From NCBI RefSeq assembly GCF_002813635.1, contig NZ_CP016382.1, positions 558,001 to 622,000 of the forward strand: 64,000 bases of DNA. The letters run 5' to 3'. Below the pieces are notes generated by a model. The model did no database searches. It worked only from the letters and a program-made list of their open reading frames with translations, and was not told where the DNA came from. The position numbers were made by a program, and so were the translations under genes. Shown piece by piece: positions 5,371 through 17,901 of the stretch. Source of the DNA: Spiribacter roseus (GTDB taxonomy: Bacteria > Pseudomonadota > Gammaproteobacteria > Nitrococcales > Nitrococcaceae). Every line of letters starts with the position of its first letter. The stretch's first letter is position 1.

Positions 5371-5402
5371 AATTGCCCGGTTGATCCTGTATCCTAAGCG
5401 AT

Positions 5403-5819
5403 ATGTGGATTCAGCGGGAAATTGAACTCGCCCGGCCGCGGGGCTTTCATCTGGTGACTGAGGCGGTGTGCGAGGCGATGCCCGACATCGCTGAGCTCCG
5501 TGTCGGTCTATTGCACGTGTTCATGCGGCACACCTCGGCATCGCTGACGATCAACGAGAACGCCGATCCTTCGGTTCGCGCGGATTACGAGACCAGCATG
5601 AACCGACTCGTCCCCGAGGGCCCGGCCGGGTACACCCATACCATCGAGGGCCCGGATGACATGCCCGCGCACATCAAGGCGAGCCTGATGGGTGCGAGCG
5701 TGCAGATCCCGATTACCGAGGGGCGGCTTAACCTCGGCACCTGGCAGGGCATCTACTTCTGCGAGCACCGCGACCGGGGCGGGCCGCGGACGCTGGTGAT
5801 GACGTTGCAGGGTGAGTGA
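5403..5819 (+). CDS. yjbQ: YjbQ family protein (UPF0047)
   Basis: A complete 138-residue YjbQ/UPF0047 protein. The signature HTSASLTINENAD (about residues 42-54) and LNLGTWQGIYFCEHR near the end are both present. Family members form compact trimers and can show weak thiamine-phosphate synthase activity, but the physiological role is unsettled. The ATG at 5403 has only a TATCCT-like hexamer a few bases upstream and no good ribosome binding site, so the mRNA leader is probably very short. Confidence 0.9.
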   Translation: MWIQREIELARPRGFHLVTEAVCEAMPDIAELRVGLLHVFMRHTSASLTINENADPSVRADYETSMNRLVPEGPAGYTHTIEGPDDMPAHIKASLMGASVQIPITEGRLNLGTWQGIYFCEHRDRGGPRTLVMTLQGE

Positions 5820-5844
5820 AAGGTTTTGCAAGCCCGCCAGGCGA

Positions 5845-6336
5845 TCAAATCCGCTTCAGCGGCAAGAATAATCGGGTGCTGGAGTGGCCTAGGGGCATGA
5901 AACCGTATTGCTCGTAAAAGTTGTGGGCGCTTTCGTTGATCGCGTCGACTATCATTGCGTAAATGCCGATCTCTTCGCTCACGCCCAGGGTGCGTTTGAT
6001 GGCATCGGCCAAAAGCAGCCGGCCAATGCCTTGTCCTTGAACATCCCTCCGCACGGCCAATCTGCCAAGTAACGCCGCCGGGATTGGATGGCGTGGCAAT
6101 CTGCGCGCGTGGTCCTCCGGGAGGTCGTTCAGCGCTATCGAGAGGCTGGAGAGTGTGTAATACCCTAGAATGACCAACGGGTTGTCGTATGTAGTTGCCA
6201 CGAATACCCGACTGGTCTGGCGTTTGACATCCTGTCGTGCACGCTTACGGAGATATTCGTCGAGAGAGGGCTCAGCGCTGGAAAAGCCGGTTCTATCGTG
6301 TCGAGAACTCAGCGCTTCGATGACGAGGTCGTGCAT
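5845..6336 (-). CDS. GNAT acetyltransferase toxin (TacT/AtaT type)
   Basis: A 163-residue GNAT-fold protein matching the toxins of DUF1778-GNAT toxin-antitoxin pairs, which acetylate aminoacyl-tRNA and stop translation. It has the typical N-terminus (FSSAEPSLDEYLRKRA), the central LLGRLAVRRDVQGQGIGRLLL containing the acetyl-CoA loop Q-G-Q-G-I-G (about residues 99-104), and the C-terminal FYEQYGFMPL. It begins 17 bases after the antitoxin stop, so the two are cotranscribed. Base composition is visibly less GC-rich than the flanking genes, consistent with transfer. Confidence 0.88.
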   Translation of the reverse strand: MHDLVIEALSSRHDRTGFSSAEPSLDEYLRKRARQDVKRQTSRVFVATTYDNPLVILGYYTLSSLSIALNDLPEDHARRLPRHPIPAALLGRLAVRRDVQGQGIGRLLLADAIKRTLGVSEEIGIYAMIVDAINESAHNFYEQYGFMPLGHSSTRLFLPLKRI

Positions 6337-6353
6337 CCCTCTCGAGGCCTGTG

Positions 6354-6641
6354 CTAATGATTCGCGACGCGATATTGATGTTCCTCGAGCGCCGCGACGA
6401 GCCTCGGGTTGAATCGAACAGGCTTGTCCAGCGCCTGAAAGAATTCATTGGCATTCTGGGCGGCTAGCTGCATGGTCTCATGTTCATGGATCTTCTCTTC
6501 GGCGTGCGTGATCGCGCTGGCTAGGATGAAGCTGCTCACGGTCTTGCCTTCAAAGCTCGCGGCACGCTCCAGCATTGCTTTGGCCTGAGGCTGTAGCCTG
6601 AGGTTAATTCGCTCCTGCTTTTTGTCCGTGTTTGCACTCAT
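6354..6641 (-). CDS. DUF1778 antitoxin
   Basis: A 95-residue ribbon-helix-helix antitoxin placed directly upstream of its GNAT toxin. The DNA-binding segment RINLRLQPQAKAMLERAA is near residues 9-26, and the toxin-binding tail ends FFQALDKPVRFNPRLVAAL, typical of DUF1778. I chose the ATG at 6641; in-frame ATGs upstream would add up to 8 residues. A GGAG lies 9 bases before it. These antitoxins normally repress their own promoter together with the toxin. Confidence 0.88.
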   Translation of the reverse strand: MSANTDKKQERINLRLQPQAKAMLERAASFEGKTVSSFILASAITHAEEKIHEHETMQLAAQNANEFFQALDKPVRFNPRLVAALEEHQYRVANH

Positions 6642-6673
6642 GCGATCGGTCTCCATGAAGAACATGGTCTATA

Positions 6674-6681
6674 ACGTACGT
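6674..6681. promoter_or_regulatory. Candidate operator of the toxin-antitoxin promoter
   Basis: A perfect 8-base palindrome ACGTACGT lies about 33 bases before the antitoxin ATG, next to a TATA-rich hexamer (TTATAG on the minus strand). Ribbon-helix-helix antitoxins bind short palindromes of this kind. There is only one copy and no tested consensus, so the call is weak. Confidence 0.35.
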
Positions 6682-6688
6682 CAAAAAG

Positions 6689-7729
6689 GTGCCTGCGCCA
6701 AGGAGGCTGGCGCTGCTGTTGGGCATGGCGGTGATCACCGCCTGTTCGCTTGGAATGGAGGACCACATGCCGCATGCAGAGATGGGCCCGGAGGGCCGGT
6801 TCGTCACGCTGCCGCAAGGGCGGGTCCACGCCATTGTGAAGGGCGAGGGCCTGGACCTGGTGATGATCCACGGCGCGAGCAGCAACGCGCGGGATTTCAG
6901 CTTTGATCTGATCGACCGGATGGCTGATGAATTCCGGGTGATCGCCTTTGACCGGCCGGGGTTCGGCTATTCGGACAGCCTCGGCGAGCCGCTCAGCCCA
7001 ATGGAGCAGGCCGAGATCCTGCGCCGAGCGGCCGGGCAGCTCGGGGTTGATCAGCCCATTGTGCTCGGGCATTCCTACGGCGGCGCCGTGGCCCTTGCCT
7101 GGGCGTTGCGCGCCGGTGATGACGTGGCGGGTCTGACGCTGCTCGCGCCGGCTTCTCACCCATGGCCCGGAGGGCTTGGGTTCTGGCGTCAGCTCTCCGC
7201 CTCACCCCTCGGACAGCATATTGTCCTGCCGACGATCTCGCACATCGCGCCCCGGCAGCTGGTGAATGCCTCGGTTGAGCGTGTCTTCCAGCCCAATGAG
7301 GTGCCCGACGGGTATCTGGATCATCTTGGGCTCGAGCTCACGCTCAGGACCCGCCAGATGCAGATCAATGCACTTCAGATCGACCAGCTCGAGGGTTATC
7401 TTGAGGCAATGGTCCCGGAGTATCCCGACCTGAGCATTCCCATTGAGGTGGTGCATGGACGGGCCGATCGAACCGTCGGCCTCCAATACCACGCCGAGCG
7501 CCTTGCCGCGGCCGTCGATAGCGTCAACCTCACCCGTGTCGAGGGGATGGGTCATATGCCCCACCACGCCGATCCCGAACGGGTCGCCGACGCCATCCGC
7601 CGCACGGCCGAGCGATCCTCTCTAGCGGAGGACCAGGAGGACCTCGCCGCTTTTAAGGACCGGGTCGCCGAACCGACCATGTCCTATGAAGCCCTTCTGG
7701 ATGACTTGCGGGCCCATGGGAAGATATAA
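6689..7729 (+). CDS. Alpha/beta hydrolase lipoprotein with antitoxin-like tail
   Basis: Alpha/beta-fold hydrolase of 346 residues. The N-terminus is a lipoprotein signal with lipobox ITAC (Cys19). The oxyanion HGASS, the nucleophile elbow GHSYGG (Ser at about 130), the acid in HGRAD and the base in GMGHMPHH make a complete catalytic set for a small-ester or lactone hydrolase. The last 35 residues are unlike a hydrolase: EDLAAFKDRVAEPTMSYEAL and then LRAHGKI look like the C-terminal tail of a Phd/RelB-type antitoxin. The GTG start at 6689 keeps the signal peptide complete, and the frame is closed just upstream. Substrate unknown. Confidence 0.75.
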   Translation: MPAPRRLALLLGMAVITACSLGMEDHMPHAEMGPEGRFVTLPQGRVHAIVKGEGLDLVMIHGASSNARDFSFDLIDRMADEFRVIAFDRPGFGYSDSLGEPLSPMEQAEILRRAAGQLGVDQPIVLGHSYGGAVALAWALRAGDDVAGLTLLAPASHPWPGGLGFWRQLSASPLGQHIVLPTISHIAPRQLVNASVERVFQPNEVPDGYLDHLGLELTLRTRQMQINALQIDQLEGYLEAMVPEYPDLSIPIEVVHGRADRTVGLQYHAERLAAAVDSVNLTRVEGMGHMPHHADPERVADAIRRTAERSSLAEDQEDLAAFKDRVAEPTMSYEALLDDLRAHGKI

Positions 7730-7767
7730 CCTACAGTTGTGGTGGAGGTAAGCTGCCTGGGGTGTAA

Positions 7768-8106
7768 TCACGCCAGCCGGCTGCCGTTGGGGACGGCGCC
7801 ATCAGGGGCACATAACACAACGGCCCCATCCGCCCGGTGAAAACCGGTGACGAGGCATTCCGACAGGAATGGTCCAATCTGTTTGGGCGGGAAGTTGATG
7901 ACGGCCACCACCTGGCGGCCAAGCAGGCTCTGGCGATCGTAGAGGTCAGTGATCTGCGCGCTGGACTTGCGCTCGCCGATCTCCGGGCCGAAATCAATGC
8001 GCAGTCGCCAGGCGGGCTGCCGGGCTTCGGGAAATGCCTCAACCTCGATCACCGTGCCGACGCGCAGCTCAACGCGGGCGAAGTCCTCAAACTCGATGGT
8101 ATCCAT
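7768..8106 (-). CDS. csaA: CsaA-type tRNA-binding domain protein
   Basis: A 112-residue protein consisting of a single tRNA-binding (OB-fold) domain of the CsaA/MetRS C-terminal type. FARVELRVGTVIEVEAFPEARQ opens the domain, followed by DFGPEIGERKSSAQI and the conserved VAVINFPPKQIG. B. subtilis CsaA was described as a chaperone; the general role is uncertain. Full length for the family. Monocistronic, convergent with the lipoprotein hydrolase gene and divergent from the next gene. Confidence 0.88.
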   Translation of the reverse strand: MDTIEFEDFARVELRVGTVIEVEAFPEARQPAWRLRIDFGPEIGERKSSAQITDLYDRQSLLGRQVVAVINFPPKQIGPFLSECLVTGFHRADGAVVLCAPDGAVPNGSRLA

Positions 8107-8140
8107 GACGTCGGAATATACGCCTCATCATGAGTGATCC

Positions 8141-8527
8141 GTGAAACGCATTTTTGTCTACGGGCTGTTGCGACCGGGTTTTGAGGGCGCCGGGTTGCTG
8201 GGTGATGCCGAGCCGCTCGGGGCAGCGACAACGTCGGGTCTGCTCTACGACCTTGGCGGCTATCCGGGCCTGGTACCCGGCGATGGCGTTGTCCACGGCG
8301 AGGTCTGCGCGGTTGATGATACCCGTCTACCCGCGCTCGACGCCTTCGAGGATTACAACCCCGCCGATCCCGCCGGCTCGCTCTATATTCGCACGACGGT
8401 AATTGCCTGGCTTGTGGCCAGCGGCGAGGCGATCACAGCCCAGGCCTATCACTATAACCGCCCAGTGCCCGAACATGCCTGGATTGCGGACGGAGACTAT
8501 GCGCGGTATGCCGCTGGACGGGGCTAG
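8141..8527 (+). CDS. Gamma-glutamylcyclotransferase-like protein
   Basis: A 128-residue GGCT/AIG2-fold protein. The substrate loop YGLLRPG (residues 7-13) and the conserved Glu in DAFEDYNP (about residue 69), the proton donor/acceptor of the fold, are present. Family members cleave gamma-glutamyl amino acids or gamma-glutamylamines to 5-oxoproline. The GTG start at 8141 has no strong ribosome binding site. With the gamma-glutamyltransferase at 2099-3802 it could take part in glutathione turnover, but that link is inference. Confidence 0.75.
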   Translation: MKRIFVYGLLRPGFEGAGLLGDAEPLGAATTSGLLYDLGGYPGLVPGDGVVHGEVCAVDDTRLPALDAFEDYNPADPAGSLYIRTTVIAWLVASGEAITAQAYHYNRPVPEHAWIADGDYARYAAGRG

Positions 8528-8694
8528 CATCACCTGCGACACGATATGACGTCTCATGCCATTAGAGTCTTTTCCGCAGGGAACGCGATCGGGCTGTGAG
8601 GCCGGATTTGGCCAGGGAAGGCCACCTTCTTCTGTTCAATGTTACTCGACCCGGGTAGCGTCTAGATTGAACTCACCTGAATGGAGCAGTAGCC

Positions 8695-10114: not shown

Positions 10115-13100
10115 TTACGATACTGAGAACTTTACTCCCATCGGTTCCTCTCCCTCATGCGACAAATATTCCAACTCCCCCATATAGCGGAACGGTGCAG
10201 CTCGGCCGTCAGATTTCAGCCGATTTTCACGAACAAAAAGGTGGATCCGCGTGCCGCGTTTGGCTTGCTCAATGATCTCCCGTCCACGCTTGCTAGTGGC
10301 TTTGGTCTGATTCTGACTCTGCCAATAAAACGTGTGGTCATCCATGAAGTGATCGAGATAGCGATGCTTCGTCTGCTTGCCCTGTTTGTTGAGCGTTACC
10401 AGCAGAACATGGGTCCGATCAGCCAGCACCACATGGCCTGTCTCCCAGATAGCTGCATTAAAGACCTCACCGAATAGCGGCGGGATCTCTTTTCGGTAAA
10501 AGCTTTGGCCCCTGGCCATCGCGAGGGGATCGAGGAGCTCTTTCAATCGCGCGAAGGTGCGCATAGATTCATCAGCGGCGAGATCCTCGTACTCTGGATT
10601 CTTAGCACGCAACCGATAATGCCCATCGGCGTCCTTAATAACCTCACGAAGCAGGTACTGCGTATCACCAGCCTCATCAGCACGCTCAATCGCCATCGTT
10701 GACCCGGTAATCGAGCCAGCAGATGTCGGTGTTGCCCATTCCATCAGCAGGTAATCACCGTTCTGAATTGGACGCTTACCGCCATTCATCGAGTCACCAC
10801 GCGCCCGAGCGACGAAGTGGCGCTCAGGATCAATGCGACCAACGTCCGCGGGTATGCCTATGTGCTCAGGTTCCTCAGGATTACTTGTGCGAAAGTGCCC
10901 GCAGGCTATTTTCAGATCCGAGTAGTAGGGAATCGTTGGCCGCCCCTGTCCGCCTGGGAATGGGAGGACCGTCGTACTGCCAGTGCCACCTTCCTTAGGC
11001 CGATACTGCGCTAGCCGATAGTCTACTAATTCTTGGACCATATTTGTAAAAGTTGTCTGATCGATCTGGTCACTCAATGTAAAGGTGGGTCGGAAGTGGT
11101 TCCCCTCGACAACAAACCATCGATTAACCTCCGGGCCTTTGTCTCCTTTTGTCCAAAAGTGAATTGGATTCTTTCTCCATTCCTTACTTAGGGTTTCAGA
11201 ATCAAGCGCATCGTTCGACTGTAGGGGCCGTGGCAAATCGTCAAAAAGGGCAGGGCGTCGGTGGAAGATTTGCGCGGACGCCGCAGTGAGCGCCTCCAGC
11301 GTTGGCGGTGCAGTGAACCCATCGATCTCTAGGAAAGCCTCCAGAAGCACCATCTTGTACGACTTGGTCATCGCTGTAGTCTCAACCTCCCGCAGAAAAT
11401 CACCGTGCGCGGTGACGCAATCTGCCTCTGCGTCGCTCAGCTCATCTTTAGCGCCGACGAACGCCCACCAGTGCCCGGCGTCATCGCGCAGTTTCCTCAG
11501 GCTGAGGCCGGCTCGATAAGCTTCGGTCGCGGTAGGACGACGGCCAAGGGCGGCACGCAGGTTTTCGAATTCTGCTCCGGCATTGCCCGGAATCAGGCTT
11601 TCAAGGAATTCAATGAACTGCAGGTCATAGTTGGCGAAGCACCCAGGCGGCAGTTCGAGCGTGCTGCTTCGATAGGCCTGAGTAAACTTCCGCAATCCGT
11701 CACCGGTAGCTTCGCGCTCAAACAAGGCCTGAGGCCGATTTAGGAATGCCCGATGATTACCCACAAAGTCCAGGACGACCAGGTGGTCTTTTCCATCCGC
11801 CTGGCGGAGCCCACGGCCGATTTGTTGCAGAAAAAGCACCGGCGATTCGGTGGGTCGTAGTAGCAGGATGGTATCCACCGCCGGGATATCCACGCCCTCG
11901 CTGAAAAGGTCCACTGAGAAGACTACCGAAATTCGGCCATCAGTGAGTCGCTCAATGGCCTCGTCACGGCTGGTGGTTGAACTGCCATGGACAGAAGTCG
12001 CCGATATTCCTGCATGTTGGAAATAGTCAGCCATAAAGTCCGCGTGCCGGCGTGATCCACAAAAGGCGAGAGTACGCAGAGCAGCTTTATCCCGCCATTC
12101 ACGCAGAGCATGGCGAGCACGGCTTCGTGTGGCTAACTGGTTTTCGAGGGCGTGTTCCTCGAATCGGCGATTACGCCAAGGCAACGACTGGTAGTCGATA
12201 GTCTCGTCTAAGATACCGTAGTAGTGGAATGGGCAGAGCAGTGAGGCCCGAATACCATCGAATAGGTCAGCGCTATAGACCAGGTTGTCGTCGCAAAGCG
12301 ACAGGATATTGGCCTGGTCGGCGCGATCGGGAGTTGCGGTCAGACCCAACAGGAAGTTCGGCATGAAATGCTGCAGCAAACGGCGATAGGTGCCGGCGGC
12401 GGCATGATGAAATTCGTCGATAATGATGTATTCGAAGGCGTCGGGATCGAACCGAGCTAGGTGGCGCGCCTGGTGCAGTGTCTGCACTGAGGCGAACAGC
12501 ATATCGGCATGGGTGTCGCGCTCGTCGCCCTGATAGCGACCGATCTGCGCCTTCGGGAAAACCCGCTGGAATGTAGCCTCTGCCTGTAACAGTATTTCGG
12601 CGCGGTGAGCAACGAACAGCACACGGTCGGCGCCGGCCTGCTCGGCATCGAATGCAGCCAGGTAGGTCTTGCCGAGGCCTGTCGCCATCACGACCAGGCC
12701 CCGAGAATAGCCTGCCTTACGGGAGTTCTTCAGGGCGGTTAGGGCCTCGAGTTGAGTCGTGGTTGGATCAGGGGTGGGCAGTTCATGATCGTCGCTACCG
12801 GGCGAAATTACAGGACGAGTCATCGGCCGCCGCCGCTCATAGGCCTCGATCCACGCGTAATCCAAGGCGCGGGCCTCGTCGGCGGTAAAGATCGCTTCGA
12901 ACGCATTGCGGATTTCGGCAAGCCGCTTCTCCCCAGTGGAATCGAACCCCTCCACCCGGTAGTTCCATTCGAGACCAGCGGTAAGCGCCTCGCGGCTTAT
13001 ATTGCTTGAACCAATGAATGCCTCACCGCGATTGCCACCCTCGCGGGTAAAAATATAGGCCTTGAGGTGGAAGCTCCTGCCGTGGGTCTCGAATACCCGA

Positions 13101-13393
13101 ACATCAGCGCCGCGCTCGCTCAGCAGCATTAGGCTGCGGAGGGCCTGAGGATCGGTGACGCCGAGATAATCACTCGTAATGATGCGGATTCGGACGGGGC
13201 GTTGCTGATTGCAACGCTCGCTTAGGGCGTCGAAGATTAGGGCAAGACCAGTACTTTTAATAAAGGATACTGCCAGCTCAATCTCTGAGGCTTGGCGAAT
13301 TGAAGTCAGTAGCTGCGGCAGCAGCGGATCATCGGCGCCGCCGTGGATCAGCCGGGGGAGAGGCATCGCTGCAGACGGGGCATGATCGGCCAT
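10115..13393 (-). CDS. PLD nuclease - SF2 helicase - S24-like - DUF3427 protein
   Basis: A 1092-residue multidomain protein. Residues about 10-145 are a phospholipase D-like nuclease with H109-L-K111 and GSSN (128-131). Residues about 215-560 are a superfamily 2 helicase with Walker A GLGKT (Lys242), DEFH (326-329), LTATP, SVDLFSEGVDIP and QQIGRGLRQ. Around 720-800 and at the end (LFVREN...SHEGEEPMG) it matches DUF3427. Inserted at about 825-930 is a LexA/UmuD (S24)-like module: ACGHF (Cys831-Gly832), GDSMNGG (Ser868), and Arg916 where the catalytic Lys should be. Proteins of the PLD-helicase-DUF3427 type occur in defence islands. GC is lower than the surroundings. It lies 15 bases after a methyltransferase gene and is probably cotranscribed with it. 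Confidence 0.88.
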   Translation of the reverse strand: MADHAPSAAMPLPRLIHGGADDPLLPQLLTSIRQASEIELAVSFIKSTGLALIFDALSERCNQQRPVRIRIITSDYLGVTDPQALRSLMLLSERGADVRVFETHGRSFHLKAYIFTREGGNRGEAFIGSSNISREALTAGLEWNYRVEGFDSTGEKRLAEIRNAFEAIFTADEARALDYAWIEAYERRRPMTRPVISPGSDDHELPTPDPTTTQLEALTALKNSRKAGYSRGLVVMATGLGKTYLAAFDAEQAGADRVLFVAHRAEILLQAEATFQRVFPKAQIGRYQGDERDTHADMLFASVQTLHQARHLARFDPDAFEYIIIDEFHHAAAGTYRRLLQHFMPNFLLGLTATPDRADQANILSLCDDNLVYSADLFDGIRASLLCPFHYYGILDETIDYQSLPWRNRRFEEHALENQLATRSRARHALREWRDKAALRTLAFCGSRRHADFMADYFQHAGISATSVHGSSTTSRDEAIERLTDGRISVVFSVDLFSEGVDIPAVDTILLLRPTESPVLFLQQIGRGLRQADGKDHLVVLDFVGNHRAFLNRPQALFEREATGDGLRKFTQAYRSSTLELPPGCFANYDLQFIEFLESLIPGNAGAEFENLRAALGRRPTATEAYRAGLSLRKLRDDAGHWWAFVGAKDELSDAEADCVTAHGDFLREVETTAMTKSYKMVLLEAFLEIDGFTAPPTLEALTAASAQIFHRRPALFDDLPRPLQSNDALDSETLSKEWRKNPIHFWTKGDKGPEVNRWFVVEGNHFRPTFTLSDQIDQTTFTNMVQELVDYRLAQYRPKEGGTGSTTVLPFPGGQGRPTIPYYSDLKIACGHFRTSNPEEPEHIGIPADVGRIDPERHFVARARGDSMNGGKRPIQNGDYLLMEWATPTSAGSITGSTMAIERADEAGDTQYLLREVIKDADGHYRLRAKNPEYEDLAADESMRTFARLKELLDPLAMARGQSFYRKEIPPLFGEVFNAAIWETGHVVLADRTHVLLVTLNKQGKQTKHRYLDHFMDDHTFYWQSQNQTKATSKRGREIIEQAKRGTRIHLFVRENRLKSDGRAAPFRYMGELEYLSHEGEEPMGVKFSVS

Positions 13394-13408
13394 GAGCGTT
13401 CTAGTTCC

Positions 13409-14038
13409 TTATGCCGGATCAGTATCGTAATCGGCCTCGTGGCGTCGCTGTAAGCAAACCGCCTCCCAAGTGACCGCAGCGCGGCCCTGCAAGTCAAGCG
13501 CTTGCGGTCTCTGGGGCGCGGGCGTTATGTCGACCAGGCCTTCGCGGAGGCCGAGATGGATCACTTCATTGTGACTGACTGGATAGAAAGTCCGCTCTCC
13601 ATCACCGGGGCCATGCCGCAATGTGAGGTAAAGAACGCCTCCTGGCGTTAGTAGATCGACTAGCGTCCTGAGCGACCTCTGCCGCTCGCCGGGCGGCACG
13701 TGCATCCACACCGCGGATAGCAGGATTAGGTTGAAACGCTCGGACAATGCCCGTGTCCGAATTAGGTCTGGCAGGCAGTCATCTATCCACCATACTGGCG
13801 TGCGTTGTGTGTGTTTCTGCCCGAGCTCCCGCAGGCGCTTGGCAGGTTCCACTGCCACCACTTCCCAGCCTCTTTCTGCGAGCGCTTGGGCATCACGGCC
13901 GGAACCCGCACCGATATCTAGCGCCGCCCTCGGTGTGCCCGGCAGCATTGGGATTAGCGCAGCATGCACCCCCTCGAAATCGAGCGCGTTGTAGCGCTCG
14001 AAGAGGGTCTCGGCATTATCCGAGTAATAGTCCGCCAT
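13409..14038 (-). CDS. SAM-dependent methyltransferase
   Basis: A 209-residue class I methyltransferase of the TehB/UbiE-like type. SAM motif I is DIGAGSGRDAQALAERGWEVVAVEPA (about residues 41-66, in two parts DIGAGSG and VAVEPA), followed by LLSAVWMHVP and the LTPGGVLYLTLRHGPG strand. There is no DNA-methyltransferase motif IV (DPPY/NPPY), so modification of a small molecule, tRNA or protein is more likely than restriction-type DNA methylation. The ATG at 14038 follows AGGGAAGAA; a longer frame to 14203 runs into the divergent promoter region. It leads a two-gene unit with the PLD-helicase. Confidence 0.82.
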   Translation of the reverse strand: MADYYSDNAETLFERYNALDFEGVHAALIPMLPGTPRAALDIGAGSGRDAQALAERGWEVVAVEPAKRLRELGQKHTQRTPVWWIDDCLPDLIRTRALSERFNLILLSAVWMHVPPGERQRSLRTLVDLLTPGGVLYLTLRHGPGDGERTFYPVSHNEVIHLGLREGLVDITPAPQRPQALDLQGRAAVTWEAVCLQRRHEADYDTDPA

Positions 14039-14121
14039 GGCTTCTTCCCTGATTCGCGTGTGCACAGGATGTATCGTTGAGGGCGTACAGGCCAAGTCAG
14101 GCGCCGAGCCGGAGGAGCAGG

Positions 14122-16536
14122 ATGCTCGTCTACACCAGTGATAAGCCGGGGTTTCTGAGGGACGTCGGGGATAATCGCATCGCCGACCGCGTTCTCGACG
14201 CAATGCAAAAGTCGGGGCAGGGCAGCGTCAGTGATGGCGAGCGCAGGTCCTGGGAGGAATCACTGCTGCGCATGAAAAACGTCCTCGAGGACAGGATCGT
14301 CCCCGATGACGCCGGCATCGCGGTCGAGTATCGGATCCCGCAGACCTCCAGGCGCGTCGACCTTATTGTCTCCGGCACCGATGACAGCGGTCAGGACGTC
14401 TGCGTGATCATTGAGCTCAAGCAGTGGAGTGATGTGACGGCGACATCGAAGGAGGCGATTGTCCGCACCTGGCTCGGCGGCAGCGATAGAGAGACGACAC
14501 ACCCCTCGTACCAGGCCTGGAGTTACGCCTCGCTGCTGCAGGACTTCAACGCCACGGTGCAGGACGACGCCATCCGCCTGATTCCCTGCGCCTATCTGCA
14601 TAATTGCGTGGACCGCACCGGGGTTGGTGACGAGCGGTATAGCGACGATCTCGAACGGGCCCCGGTTTTTCTCAAGCACGATCCGCAGAAGCTGCGCGCA
14701 TTCATTGCGCGGTACGTCAAAGCCGGTGATCTCAATCGCACGCTCTACCGCATCGAGCATGGCCGCATCCGCCCGTCACGGGATCTGGCTGCCTCGCTCT
14801 CCGATCTGATGCGTGGCAAGCGCGATTTCCTGATGATCGATGATCAGAAGCTCGCCTATGAGACGGCGCTTGAGGTCGTCAGCCTCGCCAATGCCGGGCA
14901 CAAGCAGGTACTGATCGTGGAGGGTGGTCCGGGTACGGGTAAGTCGGTAGTGGCCATCAACCTGTTGGTGGAGCTAATCAACCGGGGCCTGACCGGCCAT
15001 TATGTCACGCCCAATCGCGCGCCCCGCCAGGTCTATCAGGCCCGCCTGACGGGGACACTCAAGAGAAGTCGTTTCGATAACCTGTTCAAGGGCTCGGGCA
15101 CCTATGCAGGGGCGGACGACGATGAGATGGATGCCCTGGTGGTCGACGAAGGCCACCGCATCAAGGAGCGCTCGCAATACCAGAAAGCCGGCACCAATCA
15201 GACCCGCGACATCATCCGCGCGGCGAAGGCGAGCATTTTCTTTATCGACGAGGACCAGCAGGTCACCTGGCAGGACGCCGGGTCCATTGCCGAGATTCAG
15301 CGCTGGGCGGCGCAGGCCGGCGCCACGGTGCAGCGCATGGTGCTGCAGTCGCAGTTCCGCTGTAATGGCTCGGACGGGTATCTGGCCTGGCTCGATCAGC
15401 TGTTGGGGATTCGGCCGACCGCTCAGGATGATCTCGAGGGCGTGCCCTATCACTTCGAAGTGGTGGACGCCCCGGATGAGCTACAGCGGCGGGTAGTGGA
15501 ACTGGATCGCGCCGGGAGCAAGGCGCGGGTGGTGGCCGGCTATTGCTGGGACTGGGTGAGCAAAAAGACGCCGGGCGTCGCTGACATCGAATTCGCCGAT
15601 GCCGGCTTTGCCATGGCATGGAATCTTGATGAGGACGAGGGGCGATATCTCGAGCGGGCACACTCCATTGACCAGGTTGGCTGTATTCACACCGTCCAGG
15701 GGCTGGAGATGGACTATGTCGGGGTGATCATCGGCCCCGACCTGGTGGTGCGAAACGGTGAAATCGTCACACAACCGGCCGAGCGGGCAAAAACCGATCG
15801 CTCCCTGCGGGGTTATAAGACCCTGTTTAATACGGATCGGGCCGAGGCGACGGCGCGGGCGGATCGCATCATCCGCAACACCTACCGCACGCTCATGAGT
15901 CGCGGAATGAAGGGTTGCCTTGTCTATTGCACCGATGCCGAGACGCAGGCCTGGTTCCAGGCCCGCGCGGCAGAGGCCATTGCCGCGCCCGCGATATCAA
16001 GAGTCCACCCTGAAGGGACTGACGGGGACAATGCGATTTTCCTTGAGGCACCGGACGTCACTCCCGCGGATAACGCTGTGCCATTCGTGGAAATGACTGC
16101 CGCGGCCGGGGCCTTTGCCGACTCACCGGTGCGCCAGAGCAGCCCAATCGACTCACAGACCTGGGTCGAATTGCCGGAGTCGTTTAACGCCCGGGCGGAT
16201 CACTTCGTCATGCGCGTGGTGGGTGAGTCGATGAACCAGCGCATTCCCAATGGTTCTCTCTGCCTGTTCCGCGCCAGCCCCGGTGGCACTCGAGAGGGCA
16301 AAATCGTCCTCGTCCAGCATCGCGATATCCAGGACCCGGACACCGGTTCCGGACTGACCGTCAAGCGCTATCATAGTGAAAAGGCACCGGCTGATGACGG
16401 GGAAGGCTGGCGGCACCAGCGAATCGTCCTTGCGTGTGAAACCACGACCCCGGGTTATGAGGACATCGTCTTCGAGTCGGCGGATGAGGCCGGGGATCTG
16501 CGGGTGCTGGCCGAGTACGTGGCGACAGTCGGTTAG
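14122..16536 (+). CDS. PD-(D/E)XK nuclease - DUF2075 helicase - LexA-like protease
   Basis: An 804-residue protein. The N-terminal part has RRVDLIVSG and VIIELKQW, giving Asp80...Glu98-x-Lys100, a PD-(D/E)XK nuclease signature. Residues about 255-615 are a DUF2075-type superfamily 1 helicase/ATPase: Walker A GGPGTGKS (268-275), Walker B VVDEGHR (Asp342-Glu343), IDEDQQ, SQFRC, HTVQGLEMD. The C-terminus (about 655-804) is a complete S24 module: AAG (Ala662-Gly663) as cleavage site, Ser703 in GESM, Lys748 in LTVKRY. The ATG at 14122 has GGAGG 6 bases upstream; the frame could begin at a TTG at 14077. It is divergent from the methyltransferase-helicase unit, with 83 bases between the starts. Self-cleavage would be the obvious control, but is inferred. 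Confidence 0.85.
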   Translation: MLVYTSDKPGFLRDVGDNRIADRVLDAMQKSGQGSVSDGERRSWEESLLRMKNVLEDRIVPDDAGIAVEYRIPQTSRRVDLIVSGTDDSGQDVCVIIELKQWSDVTATSKEAIVRTWLGGSDRETTHPSYQAWSYASLLQDFNATVQDDAIRLIPCAYLHNCVDRTGVGDERYSDDLERAPVFLKHDPQKLRAFIARYVKAGDLNRTLYRIEHGRIRPSRDLAASLSDLMRGKRDFLMIDDQKLAYETALEVVSLANAGHKQVLIVEGGPGTGKSVVAINLLVELINRGLTGHYVTPNRAPRQVYQARLTGTLKRSRFDNLFKGSGTYAGADDDEMDALVVDEGHRIKERSQYQKAGTNQTRDIIRAAKASIFFIDEDQQVTWQDAGSIAEIQRWAAQAGATVQRMVLQSQFRCNGSDGYLAWLDQLLGIRPTAQDDLEGVPYHFEVVDAPDELQRRVVELDRAGSKARVVAGYCWDWVSKKTPGVADIEFADAGFAMAWNLDEDEGRYLERAHSIDQVGCIHTVQGLEMDYVGVIIGPDLVVRNGEIVTQPAERAKTDRSLRGYKTLFNTDRAEATARADRIIRNTYRTLMSRGMKGCLVYCTDAETQAWFQARAAEAIAAPAISRVHPEGTDGDNAIFLEAPDVTPADNAVPFVEMTAAAGAFADSPVRQSSPIDSQTWVELPESFNARADHFVMRVVGESMNQRIPNGSLCLFRASPGGTREGKIVLVQHRDIQDPDTGSGLTVKRYHSEKAPADDGEGWRHQRIVLACETTTPGYEDIVFESADEAGDLRVLAEYVATVG

Positions 16537-16561
16537 ACGTTTAAGAACACCCGGAGCCTCT

Positions 16562-16822
16562 ATGAACCTACGCCAGAAATCCCGCATCACCTCTGCGATC
16601 CTGACATTCCTGTTCGGGCCTCTGGGCGTTTTTTACTCCAGCGCGGCAGGGGCCATCGTGCTGATTCTGGTGGCGCTTTCAAGCGCGGGCACGGTCATTG
16701 GCCCGGTGCTGTGCTGGATCGCGGCGATCATCTGGGGCGATCACACCGTCCGCCGCCATAACGAGTCCGTCGACCGGTTGCTGAATCGACCGTTAGATGA
16801 CGATGGGGATGGGCCTCAGTGA
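16562..16822 (+). CDS. Small two-helix membrane protein
   Basis: An 86-residue protein with two hydrophobic segments (about residues 11-30 and 32-58), then HTVRRHNESVDRLLN and an acidic tail. The ATG at 16562 is preceded by GGAG and lies 25 bases after the nuclease-helicase stop codon, so it may be cotranscribed with that gene. The RITSAILTFLFGPLGVFYSS motif resembles small TM2-like proteins (with GPLGVHRFY-type turns). Function unknown. Defence operons often include a small membrane protein, but a role there is only a possibility. Confidence 0.6.
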   Translation: MNLRQKSRITSAILTFLFGPLGVFYSSAAGAIVLILVALSSAGTVIGPVLCWIAAIIWGDHTVRRHNESVDRLLNRPLDDDGDGPQ

Positions 16823-16959
16823 CAGCCTCGTCGCGCTCAATCGCACCCCTGATGCTTACGCCACATTTCCGGATCGTGACCCTCGGGCACGTCCTCGCAA
16901 GACGATATAAGGTACAAGAGACCCGATCATGAACCTGATATCTGACAGCATGGGGCTGT

Positions 16960-17901
16960 ATGAGTGAAATCGTCATCTTCAAGGATGAAGCCAATACGGT
17001 TGAAGTGCGTCTGGAAGGTGAAACCTTATGGTTGAGCCTGCAACAGTTGGCCGATCTGTTCGGGAGGGATAAATCGGTCATCTCCCGGCACCTTCGGAAC
17101 GTCTGTTCCTCTGGAGAACTTGAGCGGGAAGCAGTTGTTGCAAAAAGTGCAACAACTGCTGCTGATGGCAAGACCTACCAGGTGGACCACTACAACCTAG
17201 ACGCTATTATCTCAGTCGGATACCGCGTCAATTCAACTCGAGCCACCCGCTTCCGGCAGTGGGCCACCCGCGTCCTTCGCGAGCATCTCACTCAGGGCTA
17301 CAGCCTCAATGAGCATCGGTTGGCGCAACGCGGCCTGACCGAACTGGAGCAGGCCGTCCATCTGCTGGGCGAAACGCGGGTGCGCCAGGAGTTGGTGGGC
17401 GACATCGGGCGCGATGTGATCGGTCTGGTGCTCGGGTATGCCCGTACCTGGCGCTTGCTGCTCGATTACGACGAAGACCAGCTCGGTGAACTGGCCGGAG
17501 GTCAGCCGCCACGCGGCGTGCTGAATCTGGACGAAGCACGTGGGGCGCTCGATGCGCTGGCGGACGAGTTGAAAAGCCGTGGCGAGGCCAACGAACTATT
17601 TGCTCGTGACCGGGGTGAGGGACTGGCCGCGATCCTCGGTGGCATCGAGCAGACCATGTTCGGCGAGCCGCTGTACAAGACGCGCGAAGAACGCGCCGCC
17701 CATCTATTGTATTTCGTGATCAAAAATCACCCCTTCTCCGATGGCAACAAGCGCTCGGGCGCCTTCCTGTCTCTTATGTACCTGCGCCAGGAAGGCATGC
17801 CGCTGACGTTTGATGAAAACGGCCTGACGGCACTGACCCTGCTTGCTGCGGCTGGTCATGCACCTGCTTGCCCCGGCGCAACCGAGCCACACGCCGAATG
17901 A
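16960..17901 (+). CDS. RhuM/Fic family protein, C-terminus frameshifted
   Basis: The N-terminal RhuM-like domain (about residues 1-130; ETLWLSLQQLADLFGRDKSVISRHL is a DNA-binding-like segment, followed by SVGYRVNSTRATRFRQWAT) is joined to a Fic/Doc domain with HPFSDGNKRSG (about residues 257-267). Fic enzymes transfer AMP or phosphate onto proteins, and related genes occur in virulence and toxin loci. The normal ending LVMHLLAP is encoded at 17846-17905 in another frame. A short loss around 17840-17848 has shifted the reading frame, so this protein ends in an unrelated AGHAPACPG tail. The catalytic loop is intact, so activity may or may not remain. Confidence 0.75.
   Translation: MSEIVIFKDEANTVEVRLEGETLWLSLQQLADLFGRDKSVISRHLRNVCSSGELEREAVVAKSATTAADGKTYQVDHYNLDAIISVGYRVNSTRATRFRQWATRVLREHLTQGYSLNEHRLAQRGLTELEQAVHLLGETRVRQELVGDIGRDVIGLVLGYARTWRLLLDYDEDQLGELAGGQPPRGVLNLDEARGALDALADELKSRGEANELFARDRGEGLAAILGGIEQTMFGEPLYKTREERAAHLLYFVIKNHPFSDGNKRSGAFLSLMYLRQEGMPLTFDENGLTALTLLAAAGHAPACPGATEPHAE

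Follow-up and report, generated by a model that had tools for sequence, protein, structure and literature searches.

LexA and UmuD, which together with the λ CI repressor belong to Peptidase S24, cleave themselves upon contact with RecA filaments. These proteins are repressors or polymerase subunits, whereas the S24 modules considered here are carried by nuclease-helicases, a combination for which full-text literature searches gave no description. SauUSI cuts modified DNA, and the hallmark of SauUSI-type enzymes is ATP-dependent cleavage of DNA containing 5mC or 5hmC. As described, SauUSI (structure 7CLG) consists of a nuclease, an ATPase, a coupler and a TRD only (PMC7913695).

The window, i.e., the whole 64,000-nucleotide stretch of DNA analysed, includes three genes, here called A, M and B. 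We give about an even chance to the proposal that they make up two separable, modular candidate defence cassettes at one acquired site, and that the S24 module of B is an active switch. The first cassette would be M plus A, a methyltransferase with an ATP-driven, SauUSI-like PLD nuclease, as conserved adjacency and two natural fusions indicate. The second would be B, in which a PD-(D/E)xK nuclease is joined to a Schlafen-type SF1 helicase. The features are collected in Table 1.

Table 1. Features of the A, M and B genes (window coordinates; a dot marks an unstranded feature).
Feature	Coordinates	Strand	Basis or remark
Protein A, 1092 aa; PLD nuclease, SF2 helicase, S24 module, DUF3427 tail; SauUSI-like	10115..13393	-	Pfam, PADLOC, 7clg match
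A residues 987-1080, DUF3427	10154..10435	-	Pfam; SRA-like target recognition region in SauUSI
A residues 818-955, S24 (LexA/UmuD-like): Cys831-Gly832, Ser868, Arg916 at Lys position	10529..10942	-	Pfam, alignment, profile, model
Arg916 codon, at catalytic Lys position of LexA/UmuD and of B	10646..10648	-	hhalign profile alignment
A residues 210-530, ResIII/Helicase_C motor	11804..12766	-	Pfam; Walker A ATGLGKT
A residues 37-149, PLDc_2 nuclease domain	12947..13285	-	Pfam; FHLK...GSSN motif kept
M, 209 aa, class I SAM methyltransferase	13409..14038	-	Pfam
Divergent M/B intergenic region, 83 bp	14039..14121	.	ORF bounds
Protein B, 804 aa; PD-(D/E)xK-like nuclease, SLFN-g3 (DUF2075) helicase, C-terminal S24 module	14122..16536	+	Pfam, AlphaFold2
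B residues 38-130, PD-(D/E)xK-like nuclease motif	14233..14511	+	Alignment; Glu69, Asp80, Glu98-Leu-Lys100 all invariant
B residues 261-605, SLFN-g3 helicase	14902..15936	+	Pfam; Walker A GGPGTGKS
B residues 651-804, S24 module, complete: Ala662-Gly663, Ser703, Lys748	16072..16533	+	Pfam, alignments, LexA profile match
Predicted cleavage site Ala662-Gly663	16105..16110	+	In low-confidence, probably flexible loop 659-678 of AlphaFold2 model

The reading frames, strands and 83-bp divergent gap given in a preliminary description of this DNA are borne out. M starts at 14038 on the minus strand, 15 bp upstream of A and on the same strand as A; the ATG of B, at 14122 on the plus strand, is preceded by GGAGGAG and gives a protein of 804 residues. 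That description had also placed an S24 module in each of A and B, and both exceed the curated Pfam cut-off for Peptidase_S24 (PF00717, 23.3 bits), A with 34.4 bits (E = 2e-8) and B with 27.5 bits (E = 2.6e-6). All the residues it named are found, i.e., Ala662-Gly663, Ser703 and Lys748 in B, and Cys831-Gly832 and Ser868 in A. A PF00717 search of the whole genome finds three places only: LexA, A and B.

The G+C content is 0.55–0.60 over 10–14 kb, versus about 0.64 around it, as might be expected of acquired DNA. A phage origin was considered and rejected: no relatives of A or B are found in viral contigs, and phage records contain only partial, S24-less matches to the core domains. Adjoining B on the downstream side, at 16960–17901 (+), is a RhuM-N/Fic fusion (PF13310 and PF02661) strongly matching the PADLOC candidate PDC-S23. 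At 5845–6665 (-), a GNAT acetyltransferase and a TacA1-like ribbon-helix-helix protein form a probable TacAT-type toxin-antitoxin pair. A literature search on MADS gave nothing relevant.

Pfam identifies PLDc_2, ResIII/Helicase_C, Peptidase_S24 and DUF3427 domains in A, which also matches PADLOC mREase_IV (E = 3e-118). Its best solved relative is SauUSI, 7clg (E = 1.8e-88 over 559 aligned residues). The PLD nuclease, SF2 ATPase, coupler and DUF3427/SRA-like tail follow one another in the same order as in SauUSI, and A shares the architecture of the SauUSI-type modification-dependent nucleases, a PLD nuclease, an SF2 motor and a DUF3427/SRA tail. By its sequence, then, A is a SauUSI-type variant with an inserted S24 module and M as a partner. 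SauUSI has no S24 module, whereas A carries one ahead of the tail and has an adjacent or fused methyltransferase; certain relatives of A differ further from SauUSI in having no DUF3427 tail.

The conserved unit is M plus A. Of 18 loci with an S24-bearing A gene, 17 have M next to it, all orientations being represented, and the remaining one (L116) is cut by a contig end; among loci with S24-less SauUSI-like genes, M is nearby in only one of eight (Fisher P = 1.7e-5, a value that is indicative only, the loci being related by descent). Two loci, L126:3214–7053 (-) and L157:5744–9604 (+), encode single chains, of 1279 and 1286 aa, in which Pfam finds the methyltransferase, PLD, helicase, S24 and DUF3427 parts. 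The M family is also found fused to an HNH_4 nuclease (L105:9579–11465, L110:5954–7633, L112:9861–11618, L136–L148 and L151). No S24-bearing A gene accompanies these fusions, which recur among Gammaproteobacteria, and a B gene is mostly lacking as well; in L140, M-family and HNH_4 nuclease are separate neighbouring genes. In Pseudoalteromonas, a plasmid carries an M-A pair that is followed directly, at L130:11383–16175, by ABC-three-component defence genes and a second DUF3427 helicase, which is S24-less.

The partnership invites comparison with Type ISP/IIG restriction-modification enzymes, in which methyltransferase, nuclease and motor can share one chain, as in L126 and L157. M might mark self DNA while A, unlike SauUSI, cuts unmarked DNA. 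The adjacency in several orientations, the fusions in two genomes and the joining of the M family to HNH_4 nucleases all fit such a role. Against it, M is of the Methyltransf_11/25 type, and its motif IV region, SAVWMHVPP, is without (D/N)PPY, the motif of DNA adenine and cytosine-N4 methyltransferases. M is not recognisable as a DNA methyltransferase, and A differs from the Type ISP/IIG enzymes in its PLD nuclease and S24 module, its DUF3427 tail being as in modification-dependent enzymes. We regard a restriction-modification role as possible but somewhat unlikely.

The helicase core of B is a member of the SLFN-g3 group, formerly DUF2075 (Pfam E = 8e-97), and the first 130 residues are assigned to the PD-(D/E)xK nucleases by the motif Glu69...Asp80...Glu98-Leu-Lys100. 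The AlphaFold2 model of B (mean pLDDT 79.6) has RecD2, SLFN11 and Dna2 among its best predicted fold matches; Nhi and AbiO are weak PADLOC matches. B resembles the DUF2075/SLFN-g3 helicases in its core and in its nuclease-like front; most lineages of this group share a further trait, a MazG-like partner. Across phyla, and regardless of whether an S24 module is present, a MazG-like pyrophosphohydrolase gene lies directly upstream of B in 51 of the 70 loci. B differs in its S24 tail, and the main B lineage of this genus is without the MazG-like gene, having the divergent methyltransferase in its place. The literature searched gave no description of a MazG-like partner of DUF2075 nuclease-helicases. 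This partner, of about 115 aa, was seen upstream of the DUF2075 gene in L016–L039 and others, in many phyla. Because B often occurs without A or M, and because most S24-less B orthologues likewise keep the MazG partner, the S24 module is dispensable for the core function of B.

The preliminary description had credited B with a full self-cleavage apparatus, and this is upheld. Alignment of 11 diverse B tails gives 148 columns, only 12 of them invariant; Gly663, Ser703 and Lys748 are among these (P about 4e-4 for all three by chance, invariant columns being placed at random). The B tail profile matches LexA structures with E = 2.8e-8, Ser703 falling on Ser119 and Lys748 on Lys156; this match and the PF00717 score place B in the S24 fold. 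No aligned S24-bearing B protein departs from the Ser or the Lys, and each has an Ala-Gly or a Cys-Gly site except L030, in which an insertion has displaced the site. These proteins come from Gammaproteobacteria, Zetaproteobacteria, Desulfobulbaceae, Kiritimatiellae, Verrucomicrobia, Omnitrophota, Acidobacteriota, Bacteroidales and Patescibacteria. The B module is under purifying selection, with a dN/dS of 0.11–0.14 that is comparable to the remainder of the protein; the linker, residues 621–650, has a dN/dS of 1.1 (30 codons only). The B module is therefore like LexA, UmuD and λ CI in its fold, (Ala/Cys)-Gly site, Ser and Lys, and a post-translational switch operated by self-cleavage is its probable role.

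The B tree implies at least six gains or losses of the S24 module, which points to a mobile, recurrent regulatory add-on. An S24 module also tails a GIY-YIG/SLFN-g3 protein in the same genus (L112, genome G012). There, this protein has MazG-like and M-HNH neighbours and stands beside MzaC- and MzaE-like genes. The B/M-HNH genes of G012 adjoin Mza-type defence genes.

The S24-less B orthologues (n = 36) are 608–640 aa long, stopping just short of Ala662-Gly663. Therefore, a cut at 662–663 would recreate a natural, S24-less and complete nuclease-helicase. In the predicted structure, the cleavage-site loop lies between the helicase and the S24 core. Most likely, the C-terminal module of B works as a switch by cleaving itself. 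We suggest that the S24 tail would hold full-length B in check, or stabilise it, until a signal promotes the cut and frees a nuclease-helicase equal to the S24-less orthologues; the simplest such signal would be a RecA filament on single-stranded DNA arising from phage attack or restriction.

The same cut could instead switch B off. Here, host DNA damage would lead to S24 cleavage, the exposed degrons would cause the dangerous nuclease to be removed, and the chromosome would be protected. LexA-like self-cleavage has been reported to expose degrons, leading to proteolysis (PMC7101444), and the conserved catalytic residues fit this direction as well as they fit activation. The N-terminal product, however, would equal the stand-alone S24-less orthologues, which are full genes in many phyla; removal of B by this route is unlikely, and we favour the view that cutting turns B on.

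The trigger for cleavage of B need not be RecA, since RecA-independent LexA-like proteins exist (PMC7101444). RecA-LexA signalling is probable in this genome, since a perfect SOS box precedes the LexA gene, which lies elsewhere. For the divergent M/B promoter, control through an SOS box was considered and rejected: no match with up to one mismatch is found near 14039–14121. Within that 83-bp region, no sigma-70-like site was found.

The module of A is a different case. Its S24 fold is evident from the PF00717 score, and among the matches of a model of the region (mean pLDDT 71) are the cleavable λ repressor fragment 2hnf (E = 7e-6), LexA and UmuD. The alignment behind this model included B-type rows, and the model is partly dependent on B. 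The profile of the A module matches UmuD weakly (E = 0.005). Cys831-Gly832 and Ser868 are invariant in the A-S24 alignment, the flanks of the site are well conserved, and a dN/dS of 0.11, comparable to the remainder of the protein, indicates purifying selection. The Lys position is Arg in all aligned A-S24 sequences (Arg916 in A). A thus shares the fold, the site and the Ser of LexA, UmuD and CI, whereas the Ser-Lys dyad is absent. Lys920 was considered as the catalytic base and is not favoured, as the residue that profile alignment sets against the Lys is Arg916, Lys920 lying four residues on. No report of an Arg-substituted LexA dyad was found in the literature searched.

Self-cleavage had been proposed for both proteins. 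Because its Lys position is always Arg, ordinary Ser-Lys self-cleavage in A is doubtful. Judging from the alignments, the A module is probably a Ser-Arg variant, either a module that cleaves slowly or upon a different trigger, or a non-cleaving regulatory or docking domain. A further reading holds the S24 modules to be structural, serving dimerisation, docking or DNA reading, with cleavage lost. The Arg of every aligned A-S24 sequence agrees with this, as does the position of S24 as the C-terminal domain in the A relatives of L117, L125, L128 and L130, where the DUF3427 tail is absent. However, the Lys, Ser and Gly of B are invariant across phyla, and the Cys-Gly, Ser and conserved site flanks of A are hard to explain without catalytic use. 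A purely structural role falls a little short of an even chance overall; it is the leading reading for A and not for B. Cleavage of A in trans by B is rejected as a general rule, A-S24 being found mostly without B, although it may occur in this genome alone.

The preliminary description further joined A and B into one two-arm, RecA-triggered defence system. The two genes are adjacent and divergent in this genome and in one congener (G002), with 79–86% identity between the two loci, and both genes carry S24. Among the genomes examined, these are the only cases of adjacency. In 59 related genomes, intact A-S24 is present in eight and S24-bearing B in nine; they occur jointly in two, versus 1.2 expected (P = 0.35), and thus co-occurrence does not extend past close relatives. 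All other intact A-S24 loci have M and no B. In G001, another congener, the equivalent chromosomal site keeps the flank 5385–8640 (about 89–94% identity) and retains B together with the 5′ portion of M (13575–16862, 89%), while M plus A have given way to an M-HNH fusion and a SauUSI-like gene that lacks S24, the breakpoint lying inside M. Thus, the cassettes are modular and exchangeable. A single A-B system is very improbable and was rejected on co-occurrence; A and B are neighbours by chance, with no fixed pair. The earlier defence reading holds insofar as the neighbourhood and relatives are defence-like, but not for A and B as one system. Copies of A or B that have decayed or been split, lone S24 remnants included, are seen at G001:C1:1093336–1093470, G028:C1:2434537–2435539, L111, L118 and L119, which suggests frequent gain and loss.

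To summarize, A and B are built from known parts, and the switch of B is, by sequence comparison, well supported as a conserved active site. We tentatively suggest, at clearly less than even confidence, a candidate group of immune nuclease-helicases switched by S24 self-cleavage, with the RecA/SOS signal acting on the effector directly and not on a transcriptional repressor; the group would include the methyltransferase-linked, type IV-like A with its Ser-Arg site. The M-A and M-HNH swaps define a methyltransferase-nuclease unit, and in the A family, nature offers a conserved test of Arg as a stand-in for the catalytic Lys of S24. Should RecA filaments make B cleave itself, a defence nuclease would be licensed, or disarmed, directly by DNA damage or by the processing of phage DNA, without transcription, and the SOS signal would be tied to immunity at the protein level.
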